Positions 22,240 to 47,124 of a DNA stretch of 64,000 nucleotides are shown here, one piece after another. The position numbers and the translations under genes were made by a program. The stretch covers positions 1-64,000 of the forward strand of contig JAURZE010000005.1 in assembly GCA_030653545.1 (NCBI GenBank). The letters run 5' to 3'. The stretch is from Nitrospira sp. (GTDB lineage: Bacteria > Nitrospirota > Nitrospiria > Nitrospirales > Nitrospiraceae). Position 1 is the first letter of the stretch. Every line of letters begins with the position of its first letter. The notes under the pieces are model-generated. The model saw only the letters and a list, made by a program, of their open reading frames with translations. It was not told where the DNA came from and searched no databases.

Positions 22240-22280
22240 ATGTCTATCCGTTCAACATCTATCTAGAGGGAGGGTTGGTG

Positions 22281-22604
22281 ATGGCACTTTTTCTCGCACT
22301 CTATCTGCTCTTTGCTTCAGTCATTCCTGCCGCGGCGCTAGAGGGTTCCGCGTCGACCGCACCCACTGCGATCAAGGCGGATGTGATGTATTGGGAAGGC
22401 AATGAGCTCATCGTGAAAGAATTCTCCGGTCACGAGATGCGTCTCGTTGTGACCCCCGACACAAAAATTGAGGGCGTGGTGGCCGGACGACTCAAGACCG
22501 GCGACAAGATTGTGGCGCAGGTCGGCGAGGATCGACGGGCGCTCTCTATCGTTCTACAAGTCCCCGATGCCGCGAGTAGCGCTTCGCCAGCCGGTGCGCG
22601 CTAG
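22281..22604 (+). CDS. Small exported protein with a DUF5666-like beta domain
   Basis: 107 residues from the ATG at 22281, with GAGGGAGGG 8 bases upstream. The signal peptide is LFLALYLLFASVIPAAALE. The mature part, ADVMYWEGNELIVKEFSGHEMRLVVTPDTKIEG, then GRLKTGDKIVAQVGEDRRALSIVL, has the strand-turn pattern of small OB-like exported domains (DUF5666-like). A related layout (IDGKVRKIEGNIYVVEG, VGKDTKK, KVGDKI) is seen in the exported protein at 53060-53425, so the two may be distant paralogues. Function unknown. Confidence 0.75.
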   Translation: MALFLALYLLFASVIPAAALEGSASTAPTAIKADVMYWEGNELIVKEFSGHEMRLVVTPDTKIEGVVAGRLKTGDKIVAQVGEDRRALSIVLQVPDAASSASPAGAR

Positions 22605-23599: not shown

Positions 23600-24334
23600 A
23601 TGACTGCTGATTCTGTCAGGCGCATTCAGTCGAAGCAGCCGGTGCCGTATGAGCTGACGGCGATTCATCTCGATACCCACGACACGAAGACCTTCCACTT
23701 TGCCCTTCCGAGCGATACCACGCTGGACATGTTGCCGGGTGACCATCTCTACGTCCACGCGACGATCGACGGGAAATCCGTCAAACGCCCCTACACGCCT
23801 TCGTCGATGCCCGGCGCCACGGGCTCCTTCGATCTGACTGTGAAGCGATACGAGACGGGGGTGATTTCGCGCTATCTCCATGATCGGCAAGTCGGGGAGA
23901 CGGTGCTGATGAGCGGGCCGAATCCGGGAGGCCATTGGGTAGACGGGATGGCGAAGAAAGTCGGTTTCGTGGCCGGCGGCTCCGGCATCACGCCGATGAT
24001 TGCGATCATTCGTTGGATTCTAGCCAGGAACCAGAACGTCGAATTGTTTCTGCTGTATGCGAACAAGACCGAGGCTGACATTATTTTCCGCGCAGAGTGG
24101 GATGCGTACGTCCGCGCTCACTCGAACTTCCATTGCCATCATGTCTTGAACGAGCCGCCTGTTGGCTGGAGTCAAGGAACCGGCCGCATCAGCGAGGTGA
24201 CGCTACGCACGCATCTTCCGGCGTCCGGTGCCGACACGGTCATCTTTCTCTGTGGCCCCCCGCCGATGGTCGATGCGATCGAAACGACGCTCAAATCGAT
24301 CGGTCACGCCGAGCAGGCGATCATCCTGCCGTAG
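23600..24334 (+). CDS. FAD/NAD(P)-dependent flavin oxidoreductase (cytochrome b5 reductase type)
   Basis: A 244-residue two-domain reductase. The FAD domain has GKSVKRPYTPSS (R-x-Y-T/S FAD motif) and YETGVISRYLHDRQVGETV. The NAD(P) domain has GFVAGGSGITPMIAIIRWIL, LLYANKTEADIIFRAE and the C-terminal FLCGPPPMVDAIE, with the Cys-Gly hydride-transfer motif. No iron-sulfur or heme domain is fused, so a separate acceptor is needed (cytochrome b5-like, flavodoxin or ferredoxin). The start is set by the promoter 6 bases upstream, which predicts a leaderless message. Confidence 0.9.
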   Translation: MTADSVRRIQSKQPVPYELTAIHLDTHDTKTFHFALPSDTTLDMLPGDHLYVHATIDGKSVKRPYTPSSMPGATGSFDLTVKRYETGVISRYLHDRQVGETVLMSGPNPGGHWVDGMAKKVGFVAGGSGITPMIAIIRWILARNQNVELFLLYANKTEADIIFRAEWDAYVRAHSNFHCHHVLNEPPVGWSQGTGRISEVTLRTHLPASGADTVIFLCGPPPMVDAIETTLKSIGHAEQAIILP

Positions 24335-24454: not shown

Positions 24455-27019
24455 TCACCGGCCGAGGAGCCCCTTCAACAGGTCTTTGCCTTGTTGTTGA
24501 AGGTCTTTAGGATTGGTCGTGCCTTCCAGCAGCCCTTTGACCGCTTCGTTCACTTTCTCTTTCACCTGCTCCTGGACTTTTCCGGTCAGCTCCTTGGTAT
24601 CTAACGCGTAGGCGGGAGCTTGTATGCTGCCGGTGATCTGGAAGGGGAGTCTGAGCCGCCCTTCCTTCAGCGCGATTCTGGCAATGGGTGAGGACGATGC
24701 CAGTTTCTGGCTGAGAGCGGGAGACAGGTGCAAGTTCACAGCAAGGTTGAGCGCCTGGTCGAATCCGACGGTGCCGGCGCCTGTGGCTTGGAAGTCGTGG
24801 CTATCGATCAGCAGTTTCTGCACAGTGACGAGGCCCTGCTTGATCATGACATCGGTTTCAATCGCCGAGAATGCGGTCGTTTTGAGGCGATCCGGCGAGA
24901 GGCCTGCCACCTTCAAGAGCGTGACCGCCTCCTCCATCAGGTTAATCCCTTCGATCTTCCCGTTCTTGATCCGCAGATGTCCCGGTCCCTCCAACGCCTT
25001 GGTCAGGTCCGGCATGGTGAAGCCGCTTCCTGTGACGGCCAGATCCATGGCAGCCGTTCCGCTCATTGAGACCTTGCTGTCCGGACTGATGGCCGCCAGC
25101 GCGGGGCCGAGTTGGAGTCCGTCGATCCTGACCTTGCCGCGAAACGGCGGAGTCGGCGAGGCTGTCGACATTTCTCCGTCCGCCTTGAACTGGCCGTCGA
25201 ACAGCTGGAAGGAGGCGTTGGAAAGACGCGCGTTCGGCCCCTTGAGATCGGCATTTATGAGCAGGTTTTTGAGTTCGACGGATTTCGCGAGCCCGGTATC
25301 GATCGGTAGATCTCCTGTCTGCACCGAGGGCGATGAGAGAATCACGTTCGCCTGGCCGCCCAGCAGGGTGCCTTTGACCGACAGAACAGATTTTCCCAGG
25401 ATGACCCCAAGGCGCAGGTCGGAGATATCAGCGATCTCCAACGGAGGTGCCGACGGTTTGAACGGCACACGGGTCTTGGCCGTGACGGTGAGATCCTTGA
25501 TCTCCACTGGCTTGGCTAGCGGGATGGCGATCGGCAAGTCAGCGGTATTGAGCGAAGGGGATGAGAGCGTCACATTGGCCTGACCGTTGAGAACCGTTCC
25601 TTTGAGGTGCAGGAGTGACTGGCCCAGCGCGACGGCGACCCGCAGGTCGGAGACATCGGCAATTTCCAATGGGGGTGCAGCGGGATTGAAGGGGACGCGT
25701 GTTTTGGCGGTGACGGACAGATCTTTGAGCTCCACCGGTTTGGTCAGCGGGACGGCGATCGGCAGGTCAGCGGTATTCACGGAAGGCGAAGAGAGGGTCA
25801 TGGCGGCCTGGCCGTTGAGGACGGTACCCTTCGCCTGGATCAGCGATTGGCCCAGTGCGATGGCGACCCGCAGGTCGGAGACATCGGCGATTTCCAGCGG
25901 CGGTGCCGTCGGTTTGAATGGCACACGGGTCTTGGCCGTAACGGTGAGATCCTTCAACTCCACTGGCTTGGTCATCGGCACGGCGATCGGCAGATCAGCG
26001 GTGTTGAGTGAAGCGGATGACACCGTCACATTGGCCTGGCCGTTGAGGACGGTCCCTTTGAGGTGTACGGAGGAGCGTCCCATGATGAGCGCCAGGCTCA
26101 GATTCGAGATGTCTGCCAGCTCCAGGGGCGACACTCCTTGCTTGAACGGGTATGGCGCTTTGGCGGTCATCAGCAGATCCTTGATCAGCACCGGCTTCTG
26201 CAGCGGCAAGGCCACGGGAAGATCGGCCGTATTGATGGCGGGAGCAGACAGGGTCGCATCCAACCTGCCTCCGACGAGTGCCCCCTTCACAGCGAGCGCG
26301 ACCTTGCCGAATCCCAAGGCGAAGTTGTACTGCTGCACTTCGAGTGTTTCGACCAGCGGGCCGAACTCACCGTCCAACGTGACCGGAAGATCATAGGGCA
26401 GCACTGTGGCCTTGAGGTGGACCGAAGGCGTGTGCCCGAGACGGACGGACTTCAGCAGCAGTTCAAGGTTCTGCACCTGGTATTCCGTGACCGGGGCCGT
26501 CGAAAGATCGCGATAGGTCAGCCTTCCGCCTTCGATCGAGACGCGATCCACGGCGAATAAGGCCAAGAGCTGCAACGGATCGCGTCCGGGAGGCGGAACC
26601 GTGCCAGGCTCTGCGGTAGACGGGGTCGTCGTCCTGGCTCCGATGGTCGACACATTCATCACGCCGTCTTTGTTGGTGATGACCGTGATAACCGGATCGC
26701 GGAGAGAAATCTCTTCGACTTCCACTTGCTGACTCAGGAGAGGCAGAAGTTTCACCCCGACGTCCAACGACGTCAGCGATGCAAAGGGCCCGGCACTGAA
26801 GGACGGATCGTCGAGGATGGTCACCCCGCCCACACGGGCGCCGAGGCGCGGCCAGATGGTCAGGCGGATATCTTGGAGCTGGACCTTGCGATTCAGCGCC
26901 TCTTCGATCAGCGGTTTGTACCGGTCTTGATACTGGTTTAGATCGATGAGAAACGGCAGCGCGAGGATCACGCCGACGAGGAGCACGAATCCGATAATCA
27001 GGCTGACGACAATTTTCAC
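24455..27019 (-). CDS. AsmA-family envelope protein with internal 76-residue repeats
   Basis: An 854-residue protein. The N-terminal signal anchor (VVSLIIGFVLLVGVILALPF) and LNQYQDRYKPLIEEALNRKV plus DIRLTIWPRLGARVGGVTI are typical AsmA/DUF748 features. The middle (about residues 250-590) is a tandem array of about five 76-residue units with the core AKTRVPFKPTAPPLEIADV. The C-terminal AsmA_2 region (GPGHLRIKNGKIEGINLMEE, FSAIETDVMIKQG, FQITGSIQAPAYALDTKEL) ends in a long helix. Proteins of this class bridge inner and outer membrane and are implicated in phospholipid transport. The start is a GTG at 27019 behind GGAGA. It has a consensus promoter. Confidence 0.88.
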   Translation of the reverse strand: MKIVVSLIIGFVLLVGVILALPFLIDLNQYQDRYKPLIEEALNRKVQLQDIRLTIWPRLGARVGGVTILDDPSFSAGPFASLTSLDVGVKLLPLLSQQVEVEEISLRDPVITVITNKDGVMNVSTIGARTTTPSTAEPGTVPPPGRDPLQLLALFAVDRVSIEGGRLTYRDLSTAPVTEYQVQNLELLLKSVRLGHTPSVHLKATVLPYDLPVTLDGEFGPLVETLEVQQYNFALGFGKVALAVKGALVGGRLDATLSAPAINTADLPVALPLQKPVLIKDLLMTAKAPYPFKQGVSPLELADISNLSLALIMGRSSVHLKGTVLNGQANVTVSSASLNTADLPIAVPMTKPVELKDLTVTAKTRVPFKPTAPPLEIADVSDLRVAIALGQSLIQAKGTVLNGQAAMTLSSPSVNTADLPIAVPLTKPVELKDLSVTAKTRVPFNPAAPPLEIADVSDLRVAVALGQSLLHLKGTVLNGQANVTLSSPSLNTADLPIAIPLAKPVEIKDLTVTAKTRVPFKPSAPPLEIADISDLRLGVILGKSVLSVKGTLLGGQANVILSSPSVQTGDLPIDTGLAKSVELKNLLINADLKGPNARLSNASFQLFDGQFKADGEMSTASPTPPFRGKVRIDGLQLGPALAAISPDSKVSMSGTAAMDLAVTGSGFTMPDLTKALEGPGHLRIKNGKIEGINLMEEAVTLLKVAGLSPDRLKTTAFSAIETDVMIKQGLVTVQKLLIDSHDFQATGAGTVGFDQALNLAVNLHLSPALSQKLASSSPIARIALKEGRLRLPFQITGSIQAPAYALDTKELTGKVQEQVKEKVNEAVKGLLEGTTNPKDLQQQGKDLLKGLLGR
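25262..26270 (-). repeat. Tandem 228-bp repeats inside the AsmA gene
   Basis: The segment around GAGATCCTTGA/CTCCAC...GGCGATCGGCA recurs at about 25262, 25490, 25718, 25946 and 26174, each 228 bases apart, equal to 76 codons. The three central units are nearly identical in DNA; the outer two are diverged. Confidence 0.85.
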
Positions 27020-28972: not shown

Positions 28973-29854
28973 TTACAGTTTGCCATCTGATGATCTGTTA
29001 AAGCGATCGGCGAGGAGAATGCCCGTGGTTTTCAGCTTCTGCTCACTGATGGTGGACCGGACGGCCGAGAGCCGGTTGGAAAAATCAGGATGCGTTTTGA
29101 AGAAGGCCCGGTCGTCGCCTTTGAGGGTCCGTAACCGGTCCAGAAACGTCTCGTAAGCAGTTGGATCGTACCCCACGCGCGATGCGAAGGTGACTCCCAA
29201 TCGGTCGGACTCCAACTCTTTTCCCTGGTCCAGCCCCTCATCCAACAGCTTCTTGACCGCTCCATCGATCACATTCTTGAACGCGTCGGGATTCTTGTTC
29301 GCGTAAGCCAGGCCTGCTTCTGCCACGCCGGCGATCTGTTTGGACCGCTGAATGACGTCAAGGATATGTTTCTGGGTGACGTGACCGATCTCATGGCCCA
29401 ACACCGCCGCAAGCTCGGCTTCGTTCTTGATCGTTTTCAACAACCCGCGGGTGACGAAGATGTAGCCGGCGGGGGCGGCGAAGGCGTTGATCGAGTCGTG
29501 GTTGAGGACGGCAAACCGATAGTCGATGTCAGCCCGATCACAGGTCAACGCGACGCTGCGGCCGACCAGGTTCACATATCGGGTCAGGTCCGGCTGATCG
29601 TAGATCCCGCCATAGCGGGCCACGACCTGCAAGGCGATCGCTTGCCCGATGGTTTGCTCCTCTTCGTATCCGATGGGTAGTAGCCCGCCGATGAGCGTTC
29701 CGCCGCCGTGAATTGTTTTTGCCAGCCGTTCGTTTCCCGAGCTTCGCGCGGCGCCTTCGGCGGCCTTCTGCATTTCCGCGCAGCCGGTCAGACCGGCGGT
29801 CGCGTACAGCACCAGACCGGCAACCAGGAGCCCGTGTGATGACCTATTCTGCAT
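28973..29854 (-). CDS. M48-family metalloprotease lipoprotein
   Basis: 293 residues from the ATG at 29854. A lipobox (ATAGLTGCAEMQ) anchors it to a membrane. The peptidase core has FVTRGLLKTIKNEAELAAVLGHEIGHVTQKHI, with the zinc motif HEIGH, and a third-ligand region ELESDRLGVTFASRVGYDPTAYETF. The C-terminal FFKTHPDFSNRLSAVRSTI is the usual M48 tail. It is a periplasmic BepA/LoiP-like protease probably involved in outer-membrane quality control. Its start overlaps the end of the SH3 gene by 11 bases. It is the last gene of the cyclase operon. Confidence 0.92.
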   Translation of the reverse strand: MQNRSSHGLLVAGLVLYATAGLTGCAEMQKAAEGAARSSGNERLAKTIHGGGTLIGGLLPIGYEEEQTIGQAIALQVVARYGGIYDQPDLTRYVNLVGRSVALTCDRADIDYRFAVLNHDSINAFAAPAGYIFVTRGLLKTIKNEAELAAVLGHEIGHVTQKHILDVIQRSKQIAGVAEAGLAYANKNPDAFKNVIDGAVKKLLDEGLDQGKELESDRLGVTFASRVGYDPTAYETFLDRLRTLKGDDRAFFKTHPDFSNRLSAVRSTISEQKLKTTGILLADRFNRSSDGKL

Positions 29855-30362
29855 ATTCGCCGAGCCTCCCGGCTTTGAGGAATGCCTGGATATCATCCTC
29901 AGCAATCTTGTTGGCGGTCATTCGATCCACGGCGTCGCGATGCTGCTGGGTAATCCCCGCCCGATTGGCATAACCCTCCGAGGCTTTATCAAGCCCGCGG
30001 GCGCCGGCCGAAGCGGTGACGCCCGAGGCCTCGGTTCGTCTGAACCCTTTCCCCAGGGCGGCCAGCTCGTTGTCCCCTCCCGCCGGTTTCGACTCGGACA
30101 CATGATTGGCATAGATCCACCCTTGGACCCCCTTGGCGGTTCGTACTTGCAGCCAGCGCTCCTCGCGTTTCACCACTTCCAGGCTCTCGCCGAGCTTGAG
30201 GCTGGCGACGACCGGGTCCAGGGACGTCTTTCCTGAGCGCAACTGCGCGCTCTTGGCCGCGACGTATAGGGTTTCGCCGAAGGCGGCGTCGGTCATGGCG
30301 ATGACCATGAAGACCATGGCGGCAAGGAAGGCATGTCGGTGATTCACGGGAGCCTCGCTCAC
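29844..30362 (-). CDS. Exported SH3-domain protein
   Basis: 172 residues. A signal peptide (FLAAMVFMVIAMTDAAFG) precedes a bacterial SH3 (SH3b) domain at about residues 30-90: LYVAAKSAQLRSGKTSLDPVVASLKLGESLEVV, EERWLQVRTAKGVQGWIYANHV. The C-terminal half is helical and charged (DKASEGYANRAGITQQHRDAVDRMTANKIAEDDI). SH3b domains often bind peptidoglycan. The gene overlaps both neighbours (cyclase by 4 bases, protease by 11), so it is translated in series with them. Confidence 0.88.
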   Translation of the reverse strand: MSEAPVNHRHAFLAAMVFMVIAMTDAAFGETLYVAAKSAQLRSGKTSLDPVVASLKLGESLEVVKREERWLQVRTAKGVQGWIYANHVSESKPAGGDNELAALGKGFRRTEASGVTASAGARGLDKASEGYANRAGITQQHRDAVDRMTANKIAEDDIQAFLKAGRLGEYAE

Positions 30363-32536
30363 TTTGAGGTGAGTTCATACACGCCATCCCACTGTTCGGG
30401 AGGCGGAGCTATAAGGTACTCTTTGGCTCTTTCCAAGTAAACCCGTGCCGGGCCGTCCTTCGGGTCGAGTGCCAGAGCCGCCTCAAAGTGCGTGGCCGCG
30501 GCTTTGAAATCCCGTTGCTTGTAGGCCTCGAGCCCCGCTCGATAGGCCTCAATGACACGGCGCCGTTCGTCAGGCAGCTCTCCCTTGCGGGCGAGCAACT
30601 CGAAGACCATCACGGGTTCCCGTTTGCCTTTGACCCGCATGCGGTCGACTTCCCGCGCTTCGATGTCCCCGGCAGCGAGTTCGTAGGTACGGGGACCCAA
30701 CAGGATCAGCGTGTCATAAAACTTGTTCGCGCCCTCCAGGCGGGACGCCAGATTCACGGCATCGCCCATCACCGTGTATTCCATCCGGGCCTGCGATCCC
30801 ATATTGCCGACCACGAGCCAGCCGGAATTGATTCCGATGCGCGCGCTGATCTCCGGCTGTCCATCGGCTTTCCACCGCTCGCGCAGCCTCGCGAGCTCCC
30901 GTTGCGAATCCAGGGCGGCAAAGCAGGCAAGGGTGGCATGGTTGGGCTCTCCGCGCGGCGCCCCGAAGATCGCCATGATGCCGTCTCCCAGGTACTTATT
31001 CACATTGCCCCGGTGGCGGAGAATGATCTCCGTCATGGCCGAGAGATACTGGTTCAGGAGCTCGACGAGCCTCTCCGGATCCATCTGTTCCGAGATGGAG
31101 GTGAATCCGGCGATATCAGAAAAGAGCACCGACAGTTCTTTTTTCTCGCCGCCGAGCCGGATGGCTTCCGGATTCCGCATGATCTCATCGACCACCTCAG
31201 CCGCCATGTATTTGTCGAAAACCGTCCGCAGTTGCCGGCGCTGTCTTCCTTCCGTCAGGTACTCCACGGTCGCGGCGGTTGCAAACGAGGCGGCCAGCGC
31301 GCCTTCGGGTATGGCGAGATCGAGCCAGAGTCCGTGCGAGGTAAAGGCGTGGACGGCGAGTCCGTAGTAAGCGGTGGCCAGGCCGGCGATGGTGGCGGCC
31401 TTGATCCATTGGGATTGCATCAACATGAAGGCCCACGCGGTCGCCAGCGCGAGGACGAGTGTGGAGGCCGCGAAGACCACCCACGAGGCCGGCTGGAGAT
31501 GGCGATGTCTCAGCATATTATCGAGCGCCGACATGTGGATGAGGACGCCCGGTGCGAAGGGGGACAGCGGGGTCACACGCAGATCGTACGTCCCGGCGGC
31601 GGTGGTGGCAATGAACACGATTTTGTCGCGAAACAGCGCCGGGTCGAGCAGGGGCGGCTTCCCGCCCTGCCTGTCGATATAGGAGCGGAGGACGGCTCCG
31701 ATGGGATAGACGGGGTAGACGTGATTCTCCAGCGATCCGTGCCAGTCGATGACCATGTCCTGTTCCGCAGTCAGGGGAATCGTCACCGGTCCGAGGCGAA
31801 GTTCCCGAGGATGCAGGGAGGCTCGATCCGCTTGCAGGAGGTCCCGCGCGACGGTCGTGCTGATGTGCAGGAATGCCTGATGGTGCGCGTATGCCAGTGG
31901 AGGGAGGCGGCGGGTGGTTCCGTCGATGTCCGGAGTCAGATTGATATATCCGAGACCGTGAGCGGCCTGCGCGAACAGCGGCAAGGGCAATTTGGCCCCG
32001 GCGTAGGTCGGGACTGTTCCGGCCGGCAGCGCATTCTGATCGTCGAGCGGGATCGTCGCTTTTTTCATGATCTCGAGCGGGTACTCTTGCACACCGTCAG
32101 GGGAAGCGGTCGAGCCGCCGGAGGGCTGTTGCTCGTTCTGCATCAGGAACGGCAGATAAACGTTTCCGGCGGCCCGCATCTCTTCGGCGAATACCGCATC
32201 AAACTCTTCCCCTGATCGATCCGGTTCGAGAAACAGGAGATCGAAGACTACGGCTTTGGCGCCGGCCTCTTTTAGGTAGTGGACGACGTACCCGTGCCGG
32301 TCACGGGACCAGGGCCACTGGCCGTAGGCTTCCAGGCTGGCCTCATCCACCGCGACCAGTACGATGTCGCTCCCGGCCTTGGTGGCATCTGCGTATCGAT
32401 GGAATCGATGGTCGAGTGTCTTGAGTTCGGTGACGGTGAGCCATCCGGACCAGTGCAGGGCCAAGGCGAGGAGCCCTATCGCGCCTCCCACTACCGCTCC
32501 GGAGATGACCTTGTTGTATCGCGTGGCGGCTTGCAT
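30359..32536 (-). CDS. CHASE2-sensor adenylate cyclase
   Basis: A 725-residue membrane protein. A first transmembrane helix (VVGGAIGLLALALHWSGWL) is followed by a periplasmic CHASE2 domain (about residues 35-345: LKTLDHRFHRY, IVLVAVDEASLEAYGQWPWSRD, AAGTYDLRVTPLSPFAPGV). Two or three more helices come next. The class III cyclase domain spans about 465-640: LFSDIAGFTSISEQ (metal Asp), NKYLGDGIMAIFGAP (second Asp and a Lys for adenine), EYTVMGDAVNLASRLE (transition-state Asn and Arg). A TPR-like tail follows (YKQRDFKAAATHFEAAL). It should make cAMP in response to a periplasmic signal. It sits between a cNMP-domain MscS gene and the SH3 gene. Confidence 0.93.
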   Translation of the reverse strand: MQAATRYNKVISGAVVGGAIGLLALALHWSGWLTVTELKTLDHRFHRYADATKAGSDIVLVAVDEASLEAYGQWPWSRDRHGYVVHYLKEAGAKAVVFDLLFLEPDRSGEEFDAVFAEEMRAAGNVYLPFLMQNEQQPSGGSTASPDGVQEYPLEIMKKATIPLDDQNALPAGTVPTYAGAKLPLPLFAQAAHGLGYINLTPDIDGTTRRLPPLAYAHHQAFLHISTTVARDLLQADRASLHPRELRLGPVTIPLTAEQDMVIDWHGSLENHVYPVYPIGAVLRSYIDRQGGKPPLLDPALFRDKIVFIATTAAGTYDLRVTPLSPFAPGVLIHMSALDNMLRHRHLQPASWVVFAASTLVLALATAWAFMLMQSQWIKAATIAGLATAYYGLAVHAFTSHGLWLDLAIPEGALAASFATAATVEYLTEGRQRRQLRTVFDKYMAAEVVDEIMRNPEAIRLGGEKKELSVLFSDIAGFTSISEQMDPERLVELLNQYLSAMTEIILRHRGNVNKYLGDGIMAIFGAPRGEPNHATLACFAALDSQRELARLRERWKADGQPEISARIGINSGWLVVGNMGSQARMEYTVMGDAVNLASRLEGANKFYDTLILLGPRTYELAAGDIEAREVDRMRVKGKREPVMVFELLARKGELPDERRRVIEAYRAGLEAYKQRDFKAAATHFEAALALDPKDGPARVYLERAKEYLIAPPPEQWDGVYELTSK

Positions 32537-32575
32537 GTTACGGCTCCACCGTCGATGACCGGAGCCGGTCGGGGA

Positions 32576-34060
32576 TCAGTTCCCGGACCGACGGAAGAAT
32601 TGGAGAATCTTCGCGGTGAGCGATTGTCCATCCTCTGCGACAGACCTCAGCTTTGACGCGCGATCGGCGGTTTCGCGCGTGGCCGCCAGCGCCGACTGCC
32701 GGGTCGCGAGGATTGTGCCGAATTGTTCTGCCAGGCCGGGGGTCTTGGATATCACCTGGCTCATGGCGCTTTTACCGATGACTGTGACGGTCAGTTGGGA
32801 TTTTGCCTGGACCGTGGCGGAGCGTGGGGCTCCGGTGAGCAGGGACATTTCGCCGAAGAACTGCCCTTTCTTGAGCGCGGCGACCGGCGTGGTCCGATCG
32901 CCCGTCTTGATCACGACGTCGGCTTCGCCCTTCATGACCACGAAGAGCTCCTCTCCCGGTTCGCCCTCCCGCACGACCTGCTCACCGGGCAGGTAGACGC
33001 GTCTCTGCGCATGTTCGGCCAGCGAGTGCAGCCCCTCTGCGTCGAGTATGGCTAAGAAATCGATCGCACGAAATTGCTCCTTCATGCCGGCCAGCTCGAT
33101 GGCCCGCAGCGCCGTCAGGTCGGGGGGCTGGGTGGTATGCACGACACGTTGGGGATAAGGGATCTCGATACCATTCCGCTGGAAGGCATACCAGACGTAG
33201 GCCATCACCTCGCCCTCAAGGCGTTCTCGGCCTCCGTAGTCATGGAAAAAGAACTTGAGCTTGTAGGAGATGCCGGACTCTTTGAATTCCTCGACGAAGC
33301 TGATCGGCGCCGGAGAGGCGACGACGCCTGGGACCGCCAACGCAGATTGCACGAGGATTTCTTTCACCTGCATCGGGGGATGGGCATAGTTCGCTTCGAC
33401 GTGAATGGCTCGGGCGCACAGGCTTTCCGGCCGGCTATGGTTGGTGATGGCGGATTGGGAGACTGCATCGTTGGGGAGCATGATGTAATCGTAGGCGCGC
33501 GTTCTGATCGTGATGTAATCGAAGGCGATGTCGGTAACGACGCCCTCTTTGTCCATCAAGGTGACCCAGTCGCCGACGTGGATCATGCGGCCGAGTTGGA
33601 TGCCCGAGGCCAGGCGCGCGATGACGTCTTTGAGCGCAAACCCCACCACGGCGGTGGCGATGGTCGGGAGCGCGATCAAGGTCAGCGGATCCATTTCGAG
33701 CACCGCCCGTAGCAGGACGAGGCCTGCGAGTGTGACCCCGACGAGCAGGAAGATCAGGCGGAGCATCCGGGGGATGTATTTCCCCCGCTTCTCGACGAGG
33801 TAATCTTCGATGAACAGCAGATCCAGGGTTTTCAGGATGACGAAGGACATCGCCAGGTAGGCGATGAAGGCCAGCCAGGGCTGCGCCCACTGGGGCACAT
33901 GTGAGATCAAGCCCTGTGTCGTGAGCTCCAGCAGGAGCACGAGCAGGATCGTGGAGAGACATCCCGCGTAGAATTCAAGCCCGGCAGGTTTTTTACGGAC
34001 AGCGCTGAGGTACGCGAGCAGTCCGATGGTGATCAGGCCGAGAATCGACGCTACGCCCAT
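32576..34060 (-). CDS. MscS-type channel with cyclic-nucleotide-binding domain
   Basis: A 494-residue protein. About four transmembrane helices are followed by the MscS pore helix and beta domain (VVGFALKDVIARLASGIQLGRMIHVGDWVTLMDKEGVVTDI, YDYIMLPNDAVSQSAITNHS). Residues about 350-470 form a cNMP domain (EQVVREGEPGEELFVVMKGE) with the phosphate-binding cassette FGEMSLLTGAPRSATV, which keeps the Glu and Arg needed for cAMP or cGMP. This is the bacterial cyclic-nucleotide-gated MscS architecture. The adenylate cyclase gene begins 39 bases downstream in the same direction, a likely source of its ligand. Confidence 0.93.
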   Translation of the reverse strand: MGVASILGLITIGLLAYLSAVRKKPAGLEFYAGCLSTILLVLLLELTTQGLISHVPQWAQPWLAFIAYLAMSFVILKTLDLLFIEDYLVEKRGKYIPRMLRLIFLLVGVTLAGLVLLRAVLEMDPLTLIALPTIATAVVGFALKDVIARLASGIQLGRMIHVGDWVTLMDKEGVVTDIAFDYITIRTRAYDYIMLPNDAVSQSAITNHSRPESLCARAIHVEANYAHPPMQVKEILVQSALAVPGVVASPAPISFVEEFKESGISYKLKFFFHDYGGRERLEGEVMAYVWYAFQRNGIEIPYPQRVVHTTQPPDLTALRAIELAGMKEQFRAIDFLAILDAEGLHSLAEHAQRRVYLPGEQVVREGEPGEELFVVMKGEADVVIKTGDRTTPVAALKKGQFFGEMSLLTGAPRSATVQAKSQLTVTVIGKSAMSQVISKTPGLAEQFGTILATRQSALAATRETADRASKLRSVAEDGQSLTAKILQFFRRSGN

Positions 34061-34340
34061 AATTGTCTGCCAGCTTCCATAGGAAGTGATCGCCGGATTC
34101 TAAGGCCGCGCCGCTGACACAGCCACGGGCGCGCCAGGCAGAAGATAGACCGGATGATCTTGGGATGCAAGATGGCGGGATGAGGCACGGTTATGTATTC
34201 AGACGGGGCAGGGCGGCCTCGTGGGAATGCGGCGGGTTCGTCGCCAGCTCTAGCCCGTCACACAGTTTCTTGCAGTCTGCCTAGTGGGGGCAACTGCACA
34301 AGGCCGGTGTTAAGATCTCGTTCTGTCTCAGGGAACGGGC
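34061..34340. other. Intergenic region between divergent genes
   Basis: About 280 bases upstream of the channel operon on one side and the promoter of the gene at 34376 on the other. No coding signal was seen. Promoter elements of the operon could not be fixed with confidence. Confidence 0.5.
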
Positions 34341-34369
34341 TTGTGTGAATGCAATTTCGTTTGTATGAT
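34341..34369 (+). promoter_or_regulatory. Promoter of a small exported-protein gene, leaderless type
   Basis: TTGTGT (34341-34346), a 17-base spacer and TATGAT (34364-34369), then 6 bases to the ATG at 34376. No Shine-Dalgarno site is present. Confidence 0.6.
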
Positions 34370-36776: not shown

Positions 36777-38099
36777 TCATCTTCGCAGCGTGAGGGCGAC
36801 TGCGAAGGAGACGGCCGCACAGAGGCTCAAGTAGAAGGCGGGGGCCAAGCTATTTCCGCTCCATTCGATAAAGAGTGTGGCCATCAGCGGCGTAGTGCCG
36901 CCGAACAAAGCCGCGCCGATGTTGTAGGCGAGCGAGAGGCCTGTATAGCGCAGTGGCGTGGGGAACAATTCAGTGACAGCGGCAAAGAAGGGCCCCATAT
37001 AACAGGCCACCAACAGGGTCAGCAACGTTTGCGCCGTGATCATGCGGATCAGGTCGTCGCTGGTGAGCCAGAGAAAGCACGGGTACGACAAAAGCGCGAT
37101 TCCCGCCGCTCCGGCGATCAGCAGCGGTGGTTGTCCGATTCGATCCGACCAGGCGCCCATTACCGGAATCAACAGGGCCAGCAGTGCCATGCAGCCTGTG
37201 TTGAGAATGAGGAGTGTCGCGGGAGTAACGGTCGTGACCGTCGCCAAATAGGTTGCCAGATAGACATACAGCAGGTAGAACGCCACGCCGTGCAGCCATA
37301 CGAGGCCGATGACTTTCGCCAGGGCCCGTCGCTGCGTGGCGAATACGTCCCGAACGGGGGAAGACGCGAGTTGTCCTTCCCGGCGGATTATTTCGAAAGC
37401 CGGCGACTCTGCCACTCGGGTTCGCAGGTACCATCCCGCCACGGCAATGAAGCCCCCCATCACGAAAGGAATCCGCCAACCCCATTGACGGAGCGCCTCT
37501 TCCGGGAGGCTCGTGGCGATCAACGCCCCCACGCCGGATCCCACCAGCGCACCGATCTGGGCGCTGAAACCTGCCCAGCTCCCGACATAGCCTCGTTGCG
37601 AACCGGCCGCATGTTCGACGAGAAAGGTAGCGGAGCCGGTGAATTCTCCCCCGACCGACAATCCCTGAAGAAACCGGCAGAGGGTCAAGGTGATCGGCGC
37701 GAGCACGCCGATCGTTTCGTAAGTCGGGAGGAGTCCCACCAGGCAGGTCGGGGCGGCCATGAGCAGGACCGACCAGGCCAGCGCGTGGCGTCGCCCCACC
37801 GTGTCGCCCCAATAACCGAACAGCAGCGCGCCGAGCGGGCGTGCCAGAAAGCCAACAGCGAAGACGCCGAAAGCGGCGATCAACGAGGTGGAGGCAGAAT
37901 CGGAGGGAAAGAACAGAGCGGCGAAGACGGGAGCGAAGTAACCATAGAGGGCGAAGTCGTACCATTCAAGCACATTACCGATGGCCCCGGCCAAGAGTGT
38001 TCTCTTCCTCACTGGCGCGACACGTTTCGGCATTATCGTGTTCGGCAAATCGGCAGCCACTTTCCGGCCGGCTTCAGTCGCTCTGATCCTGTGCGGCAC
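36777..38099 (-). CDS. MFS transporter of the metabolite:H+ symporter type
   Basis: 440 residues, 12 predicted helices. The MHS-type signature is at the N-terminus (GNVLEWYDFALYGYFAPVFAALFFP), followed by GFLARPLGALLFGYWGDTVGRRHAL (loop 2-3 motif) and RFLQGLSVGGEFTGSATFLVEHA, as in ProP, KgtP and citrate permeases. WGWRIPFVMGGFIAVAGWYLR is the usual mid-protein segment. It should import an organic acid or osmolyte with protons. The N-terminal 28 residues are longer than typical, so MPKRVAPVRKR (internal Met) may be the real start. Confidence 0.9.
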   Translation of the reverse strand: MPHRIRATEAGRKVAADLPNTIMPKRVAPVRKRTLLAGAIGNVLEWYDFALYGYFAPVFAALFFPSDSASTSLIAAFGVFAVGFLARPLGALLFGYWGDTVGRRHALAWSVLLMAAPTCLVGLLPTYETIGVLAPITLTLCRFLQGLSVGGEFTGSATFLVEHAAGSQRGYVGSWAGFSAQIGALVGSGVGALIATSLPEEALRQWGWRIPFVMGGFIAVAGWYLRTRVAESPAFEIIRREGQLASSPVRDVFATQRRALAKVIGLVWLHGVAFYLLYVYLATYLATVTTVTPATLLILNTGCMALLALLIPVMGAWSDRIGQPPLLIAGAAGIALLSYPCFLWLTSDDLIRMITAQTLLTLLVACYMGPFFAAVTELFPTPLRYTGLSLAYNIGAALFGGTTPLMATLFIEWSGNSLAPAFYLSLCAAVSFAVALTLRR

Positions 38100-44294: not shown

Positions 44295-45476
44295 ATGCCG
44301 TTAATTCCCGAACCGCTGCACCATCGTCTCATCCAGCTGCGCCGTGTGCTTCATGAATATCCTGAACTCAGCGGGCAGGAGGCCAACACGGCGGCAGTGA
44401 TTTGTAAATTTCTCGATGGACTCGCCATCAAGTATCGAGCGCACGTCGGTGGCCACGGGGTGATTGCTGAGATTCCCGGACGCGCCGGAGTGCCCTGTGT
44501 TGTGTTGCGCGCCGACATGGATGCGCTGCCGATTCAGGAAGACACCGGCCTGGAATTCGCGTCGGTCCATGACGGCATCATGCACGCCTGCGGGCATGAC
44601 GGGCACACGGCGATGCTGCTCGGCGCTGCCGCGCTGCTCTCGGAGGAGAATGAGCTGCCCGCTCCGGTGCGGTTGATTTTTCAGCCCGCCGAGGAAAAAG
44701 GCACCGGCGCGTTGGCCATGATTCACGCCGGCGCGTTGGAGGGGGCGGGCATGATATTCGGCGGGCATCTCGACCGTCACTATCATCCGGGAGGCATTGC
44801 CGTGGCCGAGGGCGCCGTCAACGCGTCGTCGGATAATTTCACGATCGAGATCATCGGACAGGGTGCGCACGGCGCGCGTCCCCACGAGAGCATCGACGCG
44901 GTCGTGGTCGGGAGCCTCATGATCATGGCGCTGCAGACGATCGTGTCGCGTGAAGTCGACCCCGCGCGGCCGTCGGTCGTCTCCGTGGGGCAGTTCCATG
45001 CGGGGACCGCGCCGAACGTGATCGCGGGCCAGGCCAAGTTGGAGGGGACGGTCCGTGCTCAGGATCCTATGGTGAGGCAACAACTCCTCGCCTCCATCCG
45101 CCGCATCGCCGAATCCATTGCCCAGCTGCATGGAGCGAAAATTCAGGTCGCCGTGACAGAAGGCACGCCGCCGCTGATCAACACGCCGGACATGGCCAGC
45201 CTCGCGCGCCGCGCGGCGGTCACTGCCGTGGGGGAGGCCAACGTATTGCCGCTCAAGACGGCCAACATGGGGGCCGAGGATTTCAGTTACTACATGGAAA
45301 AGATTCCGGGCGCCTATGTCCGATTCGGGGGGCAAGTGCCCGGCAAGGAAGGGTATCCCGCGCATTCCAGCAAGTTCGATTTCGATGAAGCAGCTTTGGC
45401 CGTCGGTGCGGCCTATTATCAGGCCATTGCCAGGCTCGCGGGCCAGCGGTTGCGCGATCAGACCACCGGTTTCTGA
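44295..45476 (+). CDS. M20-family amidohydrolase / aminoacylase
   Basis: 393 residues of the M20D (hippurate-hydrolase-like) family. Metal- and substrate-binding motifs: LRADMDALPIQEDTGLEFAS, MHACGHDGHTAMLLGAAALL (Cys and His metal ligands), LIFQPAEEKGTGALAMIHAG (Glu-Glu), and the C-terminal MGAEDFSYYMEKIPGAYVRFG. The dimerisation domain lies between about 185 and 300 (ASSDNFTIEIIGQGAHGARPHESIDAV). It cleaves N-acyl amino acids or similar amides. The acetyltransferase gene starts 20 bases downstream, so both are likely in one transcript. Confidence 0.92.
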   Translation: MPLIPEPLHHRLIQLRRVLHEYPELSGQEANTAAVICKFLDGLAIKYRAHVGGHGVIAEIPGRAGVPCVVLRADMDALPIQEDTGLEFASVHDGIMHACGHDGHTAMLLGAAALLSEENELPAPVRLIFQPAEEKGTGALAMIHAGALEGAGMIFGGHLDRHYHPGGIAVAEGAVNASSDNFTIEIIGQGAHGARPHESIDAVVVGSLMIMALQTIVSREVDPARPSVVSVGQFHAGTAPNVIAGQAKLEGTVRAQDPMVRQQLLASIRRIAESIAQLHGAKIQVAVTEGTPPLINTPDMASLARRAAVTAVGEANVLPLKTANMGAEDFSYYMEKIPGAYVRFGGQVPGKEGYPAHSSKFDFDEAALAVGAAYYQAIARLAGQRLRDQTTGF

Positions 45477-45495
45477 CCCAGCTTACGGGACGGCC

Positions 45496-47124
45496 ATGAT
45501 TCGGATCAGAGAAGCCTGCGAAGAAGATGTCGGCCAGATCCGCGAGATTTTTCTCGCGGTCTACGGCACCGACTACCCGCATCGCGAACTCTACGATGAA
45601 TTGTGGCTGAAGCGCTCGGTCTTCACGGACGATGCGCTGATTCTCGTCGCCGAAGATACGGAGGCCAATCGGGTGATCGGTACGGCTTCCGTGCTGTTTG
45701 ATTTCGGAGCCCATTCCGATCTCGTGGGCGAGTTCGGCCGGCTCGCGGTCCATCCGGACTATCGCCGGTTGCAGGTCGGTAAGCTGCTGATGGAGAAGCG
45801 CCTGGAGGTGATTCAGAACCGCCTCCACGTCGGCCTCGTCGTCGCCCGTACCGTCCACCCCTATGCCCAGCAGATCAGCCTCGCGCACGGGTTCACCCCC
45901 ACCGGGTTTCTGCCGCTGAAGCATTTCTTTCGCCACCGCGAGAGCTTTGCTTTGCTGGTCCGGTATTTCGGCGATGCACTCGCCTTGCGCCGCAACAATC
46001 CGCGGATCATTCCCGAGGTCTATGCCCTGGCGAATCTCGTGATGAGCCACCCGCCGCTGACCCCGGATTTCATCGTCGACGAAGACTCCGCTCCGTATCC
46101 GGCCGGGGGCGACTACACCATTGAGCAACTGCAGTCCGAAGGCTATCCGGCCTTACTGCGTATTGAGCGGGGGCGGGTGCGCAACCGGGAAATCTTCGGC
46201 CCCATGCGGCTGGATTACGGGTTTTTCAAACTCCATTCGCGGCAAACCAGTTACTTTCTGGCCCGCTCCGGCGGCCACATCGCCGGAGCCGTCGGTTATA
46301 TGATGGATCCGGTCGAACACACCGTCCACGTATTCGAGCTCATTGCTCTGGCCGACGATGTCGTGCGTTTTCTACTCGTTGAACTGGAGCGGAAGTGCCG
46401 GGAGGAGATGGGGATCGAGTACATCGAGATCGACGTCAGTGCCTATGCCCCCCGGATGCAGCGCACGCTTCTGGAGCTAAACTTTATGCCAGTTGCCTAT
46501 GTGCCGGCCATGGTGTTCTATCAGGTGGAGCGGCTCGATATCGTAAAGATGGTGCGGCTGAACAAGCTGCAAGATCTGGGGCCGCTCGCACTGACGGAAC
46601 AGGTCCGGGTCGTCGCCGATGTGGTGATGCGCGGGTTCTCCACCTGCGTCATCGCCCCGCGCATGGCACAGGCCATCAAGGAGATTCCATTGTTCCACGG
46701 CATGAACAGTGAGCAGGCAATCCGGCTGGCGGGAATCTGTACGGTGCGGGAATGGCAGCCAAGGGATTGTCTTTTTGTCGAGCGCGATCCAACAGACCGG
46801 CTGTATCTGGTGCTGCAGGGGCGAGTCGTCATCAGCGGCGGCAGCCCGCCGGTGACAATCGGAACCGTCCGCACCGGGGAGACCTGCGGGGAAGTGTCAC
46901 TGCTCTCGGCCCGGCCGCACTCCGCGACGGCTACGGCGGAGGGCCCTGTCGAAGCGGCCGAACTGCTCCAGCGCGATCTGGCCGATCTCATCCGCCGGCG
47001 TCCTGACATCGGGGTCATTATCTACCGCAACCTGGCCGTCGGCCTCGGCGAGAAACTCCTGCGCTCCGGCCATTCCATGCGGGGCCATGAACCTGCCCAT
47101 TCGGAAGTGCTTCATTTTACCTGA
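45496..47124 (+). CDS. GNAT acetyltransferase with cyclic-nucleotide-binding domain
   Basis: 542 residues from MIRIREACEEDVGQIREIFL. The first GNAT domain (about residues 1-150) has FGRLAVHPDYRRLQVGKLLMEKRL, the acetyl-CoA loop. A second GNAT-like region (about 210-360) contains SGGHIAGAVGYMMDPVEHTV, ALADDVVRFLLVELERKCRE and LLELNFMPVAYVPAMV. The C-terminal cNMP domain (about 395-515) contains VEREPTDRLYLVLQGRVVISGG-like strands and the cassette GEVSLLSARPHSATATA. The usual phosphate-binding Arg is replaced by His, so nucleotide binding is doubtful. Fusions of GNAT and cNMP domains occur as cAMP-gated protein acetylases in mycobacteria, with different domain order. Confidence 0.85.
   Translation: MIRIREACEEDVGQIREIFLAVYGTDYPHRELYDELWLKRSVFTDDALILVAEDTEANRVIGTASVLFDFGAHSDLVGEFGRLAVHPDYRRLQVGKLLMEKRLEVIQNRLHVGLVVARTVHPYAQQISLAHGFTPTGFLPLKHFFRHRESFALLVRYFGDALALRRNNPRIIPEVYALANLVMSHPPLTPDFIVDEDSAPYPAGGDYTIEQLQSEGYPALLRIERGRVRNREIFGPMRLDYGFFKLHSRQTSYFLARSGGHIAGAVGYMMDPVEHTVHVFELIALADDVVRFLLVELERKCREEMGIEYIEIDVSAYAPRMQRTLLELNFMPVAYVPAMVFYQVERLDIVKMVRLNKLQDLGPLALTEQVRVVADVVMRGFSTCVIAPRMAQAIKEIPLFHGMNSEQAIRLAGICTVREWQPRDCLFVERDPTDRLYLVLQGRVVISGGSPPVTIGTVRTGETCGEVSLLSARPHSATATAEGPVEAAELLQRDLADLIRRRPDIGVIIYRNLAVGLGEKLLRSGHSMRGHEPAHSEVLHFT

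Follow-up and report, generated by a model that had tools for sequence, protein, structure and literature searches.

When an adenylate cyclase gene lies beside the gene for a channel with a cyclic nucleotide-binding (cNMP) domain, does the cAMP made by the one act on the other? The question is raised by four adjacent genes of Nitrospira sp. (assembly GCA_030653545.1), which lie in a stretch of 64,000 nucleotides (contig JAURZE010000005.1, positions 1 to 64,000), hereafter called the window; G000 denotes the genome holding it, and coordinates given without a locus handle are window positions. We know of no established physiological role for cAMP-binding MscS channels in bacteria. On balance, we favor the reading that, in some Nitrospiraceae, the four genes form an envelope-sensing operon inherited together, in which cAMP from a CHASE2 cyclase would act on the adjacent MscS-type channel.

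Organization of the four-gene locus

The initial annotation described four overlapping or closely spaced minus-strand genes, and we confirmed this arrangement: all four open reading frames are present at the expected positions with the named domains, in the order channel, cyclase, SH3, and M48. The gene for an MscS-superfamily channel with a C-terminal cNMP domain (32576..34060, minus strand, 494 amino acids) is separated by 39 bp from that for a CHASE2-domain class III adenylate cyclase (30359..32536, minus strand, 725 amino acids). The GTG start of the third gene, encoding an exported bacterial SH3-domain protein (29844..30362, minus strand, 172 amino acids), overlaps the cyclase stop by 4 bp (GTGA), and the start of the fourth, encoding an M48 zinc metalloprotease (28973..29854, minus strand, 293 amino acids), overlaps the SH3 stop by 11 bp. 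All four are under purifying selection (dN/dS, 0.05 to 0.31), and because of these values and the conserved gene order described below, the four genes go beyond chance.

The intergenic region between the channel gene and a divergent gene at 34349 (34061..34348) is presumed to be the promoter region of the four-gene unit. The promoter scan found no sigma-70-like match in it, and the promoter and terminator scans gave no signal clearly exceeding that of shuffled sequences. Rfam and tRNA scans returned no matches, and all matches in the plasmid searches were below 60% identity and mostly from rhizobia. Elsewhere in the window, an AsmA-family protein (24455-27019, minus strand) has several internal repeats with overlapping matches.

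Domains and conserved residues of the four proteins

In the channel, PF00924, PF21082, and PF00027 each exceeded the Pfam cutoffs, the last with 70.8 bits. Hydrophobic N-terminal segments are followed by the MscS beta domain (approximately residues 146 to 210), the C-terminal MscS domain (222 to 300), and the cNMP domain (354 to 439), which contains GEMSLLTGAPRSATV (E404 and R413). The earlier reading that the cassette Glu and Arg are kept was borne out, as E404 and R413, inside FFGEMSLLTGAPRSATV, were invariant in 32 homologues with identity down to 26%, and this region aligns to the GE...RSA cassettes in cNMP domains of known structure. MscS-family structures also matched the channel. The channel has the MscS beta and C-terminal domains and a cNMP domain with the phosphate-binding Glu and Arg that mark bCNG channels; by domains and residues it is of the bCNG type, and its opening by a cyclic nucleotide is predicted. 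AlphaFold2 models built from shallow alignments had mean pLDDT values of 52 for the channel and 56 for the SH3 protein, too low for fold searches.

The cyclase consists of a CHASE2 domain (PF05226, E value of 3e-53, residues 21 to 367), a catalytic Guanylate_cyc domain (PF00211, E value of 4e-25, residues 465 to 643), and a weak TPR match at the C terminus (665 to 694). The metal-binding Asp pair and the adenine-recognizing Lys claimed at first sight are indeed present as D474, D518, and K514, which, with T588, N595, and R599, were invariant in seven diverged homologues and aligned with Pseudomonas aeruginosa CyaB (3r5g). We take T588 to be the second base-recognizing position, which would place the enzyme in class IIIb; the combination of Lys and Thr is that of class IIIb. 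With two metal Asp residues, the adenine Lys, Thr, Asn, and Arg, the protein has the residues of a class III (IIIb type) adenylate cyclase, and its product would be cAMP. A response to bicarbonate has been reported for class IIIb cyclases, and bicarbonate is an alternative candidate input for the cyclase of an autotroph. A second CHASE2 class III cyclase of G000 (L037 4913-6982, from contig C25) is approximately 33% identical and adjoins an FecR-like gene, with neither a channel nor an M48 gene beside it.

The SH3 protein matched PF08239, and its C-terminal motif VTASAGARGLDK was invariant in the SH3 proteins paired with M48 proteases. The M48 protein (PF01435, E value of 4e-29) belongs to the wider M48 family and keeps both HEIxH (HEIGH at 154 to 158) and ExxxD (213 to 217). 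We replaced its TTG start at 29905 with the ATG at 29854 as the most likely one, since the latter gives a predicted lipoprotein signal (lipobox LTGC) whose Gly-Cys is common to all aligned homologues. Its best solved relative was 3c37, followed by BepA. An assignment to BepA or LoiP was rejected, as the scores (113 of 570 bits and 55 of 365 bits, respectively) were far under the family cutoffs; like them, the protein is a zinc HEXXH envelope protease, but it lacks a BepA-like C-terminal extension and is paired with an SH3 protein.

Candidate producers and receptors of cAMP in the genomes

The initial annotation considered it plausible that cAMP raised by the cyclase gates the channel, and counts of PF00211 and PF00027 proteins across whole genomes make the two the obvious candidate cAMP pair. 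PF00027 domains were counted in eight genomes, with the cassettes aligned on that of the channel and a weak G002 match (C16) set aside; the counts cover cyclases of class III (PF00211) and receptors with a PF00027 domain. In G000, there are two PF00211 proteins (class III cyclases) and nine PF00027 domains, among which the channel alone has the Glu and the Arg with the following Ser-Ala (GE plus RSA). A CRP-like protein of this genome (C4:3451) keeps Glu and Arg with Pro in place of Ser/Thr after the Arg (RPA), and in each of the remaining domains the binding Arg or the Glu is missing. The cassette cyclase is the sole PF00211 protein in G040, G039, G364, and G383, and the channel carries the sole canonical cNMP cassette in G040, G039, and G383, as well as in G122, where the genes are unlinked. 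Canonical cassettes beyond the channel number one in G364 (SPRSATA) and one in G002 (a PycTIR-like protein), and some other cNMP proteins of G122, G383, and G172 keep the Glu and the aligned Arg without Ser/Thr-Ala. Degenerate cassettes may nonetheless bind. Because four genomes have a single PF00211 cyclase and three of those a single canonical cassette, the counts suggest a cAMP circuit with one maker and one receptor, the channel being its end point.

Besides, we observed five near-alike CRP/FNR-type regulators in G000 (L167, L168, L170, L171, and L173, on contigs C4, C17, and C28), four of which are without the binding Arg (Q, C, Y, and C). In the window, a protein encoded at 45316-47124 (plus strand) joins a GNAT-like region to a cNMP domain and resembles Pat-type acetyltransferases; His replaces its binding Arg (GEVSLLSARPHSATA). 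G002, which has no PF00211 cyclase, encodes a cNMP-TIR protein (L197, G002:C18:36214-36462) that scored above 300 bits against PADLOC models of Pycsar/TIR effectors.

In the favored reading, the CHASE2 sensor would read the periplasm, and the catalytic domain would make cAMP in the cytoplasm. The adjacent MscS-type channel would be the main or only standard cAMP receptor, and cAMP would shift the opening of this osmotic or solute-release pore; cAMP as product and as ligand, and its gating of the channel in one direction or the other, are inferred. The SH3 protein and the M48 lipoprotease would form an older pairing, linked to the cyclase and acting upstream, most likely by shaping or processing the envelope state that CHASE2 would sense. 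Their action on the wall or outer membrane, which the initial annotation also proposed, is speculative.

Conservation and history of the gene order

The four-gene cassette was found in 7 of the 79 genomes (species) of genus g1 (G000, G068, G014, G023, G051, G040, and G039), with a partial cassette in G002; an apparent channel deletion in G051 proved to be a string of N in its assembly. Outside the genus, the identical order was found in two other genera (G383 in g4 and G364 in g7) and in the diverged metagenome-assembled genome Nitrospira sp. RSF151, whose cassette has 56 to 74% identity and dS values of approximately 1.2 to 2.0 (values above 1 being near saturation). Conservation of the order, as first expected, thus held in four lineages (g1, g4, g7, and RSF151), but the genes were not inseparable: the trio of cyclase, SH3, and M48 genes and the channel each occur without the other, the two are unlinked in g2 and g5, and most of the cassette is lost from G002. 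The flanks of the cassette mostly differ among the lineages; the exception is L063, which shares a few genes with the wider window (22275-22604, 23600-24334, and 36777-38099).

In each of the two protein trees, the linked genes group in a single clade (support of 99/100 for the channel and 100/100 for the cyclase), with RSF151 branching first, and therefore the simplest account is that channel and cyclase became linked once and stayed so. This history itself weighs against coupling, because the persistence of a linkage that appears to have arisen once would be one event plus retention.

The trio was present without an adjacent channel in L107, L108, L143, G385, and the sister genera g2 and g5, the latter two having both channel and trio in the genome, apart. 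In g2, 25 of 29 genomes have channel and cyclase, unlinked in the loci examined; two have neither (G095 and G422), and two have the cyclase alone (G221 and G419, the latter of 66% completeness). In L147, a Tll0287-like gene and a trypsin/FGE-domain gene (Pfam) precede the trio, and L142 has an upstream layout alike by sequence. Without this cyclase, the SH3-M48 pair has a wider distribution in the phylum. From this nesting, with the pair wider than the trio and the trio separable from the channel, we infer that the SH3 protein and the protease belong with the cyclase, not with the channel.

Channels outside the cassette clade, at 26 to 49% identity, had no relative of the cyclase, the SH3 protein, or the M48 protease in the flanking stretches examined, a point against the favored reading. 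In g2, the channel homologue of L078 (8678-12567) comes after recJ and relA/spoT genes (Pfam), and that of L066 is likewise beside them, a neighborhood (Pfam checked for L078) that hints at a different regulatory link; a 4Fe-4S protein near the L078 channel was read as a nitrite oxidoreductase beta subunit. In a sample of 396 genomes of the phylum, a high-scoring channel and a trio-type SH3 gene occurred together in 30, the channel alone in three (G002, G306, and G409; G403 gave a partial match), and the SH3 gene alone in three (G221, G349, and G385); these counts are confounded by descent, the co-occurrence tracking the family tree.

Alternative explanations

The four genes may instead be envelope or osmotic-stress genes that are under shared regulation but not directly coupled: tension would gate the channel, its cNMP domain would be modulatory or bind another ligand, and the operon would serve joint expression only. 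We consider this rather unlikely, and it is nevertheless the rival that survives best. It would accommodate the unlinked channel and trio of g2 and g5, and it has a precedent in the halobacterial dacZ-mscS2 operon, whose operonic channel was judged not to be a main c-di-AMP target under the tested conditions (PMC6741144). That operon resembles ours in that a nucleotide cyclase and an MscS channel share one conserved operon, dacZ being linked to osmotic homeostasis, and differs in using c-di-AMP where the present one would use cAMP. Furthermore, G002, a 99% complete genome, has no PF00211 protein: only the first 159 codons of its cyclase remain, frameshifted, and the SH3 and M48 genes are absent, with the channel intact and constrained (dN/dS of approximately 0.18, within the range of the others). 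We regard G002 as the strongest evidence against an obligatory form of the putative coupling. However, the cyclase remnant is still approximately 82% identical, and the loss of the trio may therefore be recent; either this is so, or the channel is useful without cAMP. The canonical cassette invariant in 32 channels and the few or no alternative canonical receptors also argue against an uncoupled channel.

It is less probable still that the functional unit is the trio, serving envelope protein quality control, with the channel a bystander joined once and cAMP acting on CRP/FNR-type or unrecognized receptors. The trios lacking an adjacent channel (L107, L108, L143, and those of g2 and g5), the wider SH3-M48 pair, and the CRP-like protein C4:3451, with its Glu, Arg, and following Pro, would fit such a unit. 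On the other hand, the four-gene order has held through the divergence to RSF151, and the binding Arg or Glu is missing from most other cNMP proteins.

A Pycsar-like anti-phage system, in which a nucleotide cyclase acts on a cNMP-binding membrane effector, is very improbable and membership was rejected: the weak and partial PADLOC matches (cyclase to PycC, channel cNMP domain to PycTIR/effector models) cover shared domains only, the PycTIR-like protein of G002 scores more than 300 bits as against 45 here, and the canonical adenine-type cyclase residues, the CHASE2 sensor, the SH3 and M48 partners, the vertical-looking inheritance, and the constraint all speak against it.

Relation to known systems and significance

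Judging by the titles in the reference list of PMC4560390, MscS channels with a cNMP domain have been published as bCNG channels (Caldwell 2010; Malcolm 2012); as far as these titles tell, they share with the present channel an MscS pore and beta domain joined to a cNMP domain, and the present one differs in lying in an operon with a CHASE2 cyclase, an SH3 protein, and an M48 protease. The cyclase encoded next to mtxA in magnetotactic bacteria (PMC4439547) and the C25 paralogue of G000 likewise combine a CHASE2 sensor with a class III cyclase domain, but have no cNMP channel gene beside them, whereas SH3 and M48 genes follow the cyclase gene here. In the literature searched, with partial coverage, we found no description of the four-gene unit, the cyclase-SH3-M48 trio, or the one-maker, one-receptor count, and no paper bringing together CHASE2, adenylate cyclase, and Nitrospira. 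The parts are of known families; the unit, the trio, and the circuit count are new as far as the literature was searched.

Our analysis defines a cyclase-SH3-M48 envelope module. A lineage having its only recognized cyclase and its only canonical receptor in one operon offers a clean natural test system for the role of such channels, and does so in the group that includes the nitrite oxidizers of nitrification. It is possible, though we would not call it probable, that cAMP in these Nitrospiraceae serves a closed single-purpose circuit of one membrane cyclase and one channel receptor, with no cAMP-dependent transcription regulator. If this is true, bacterial cAMP would serve as a messenger that gates a channel and not as a catabolite or transcription signal.
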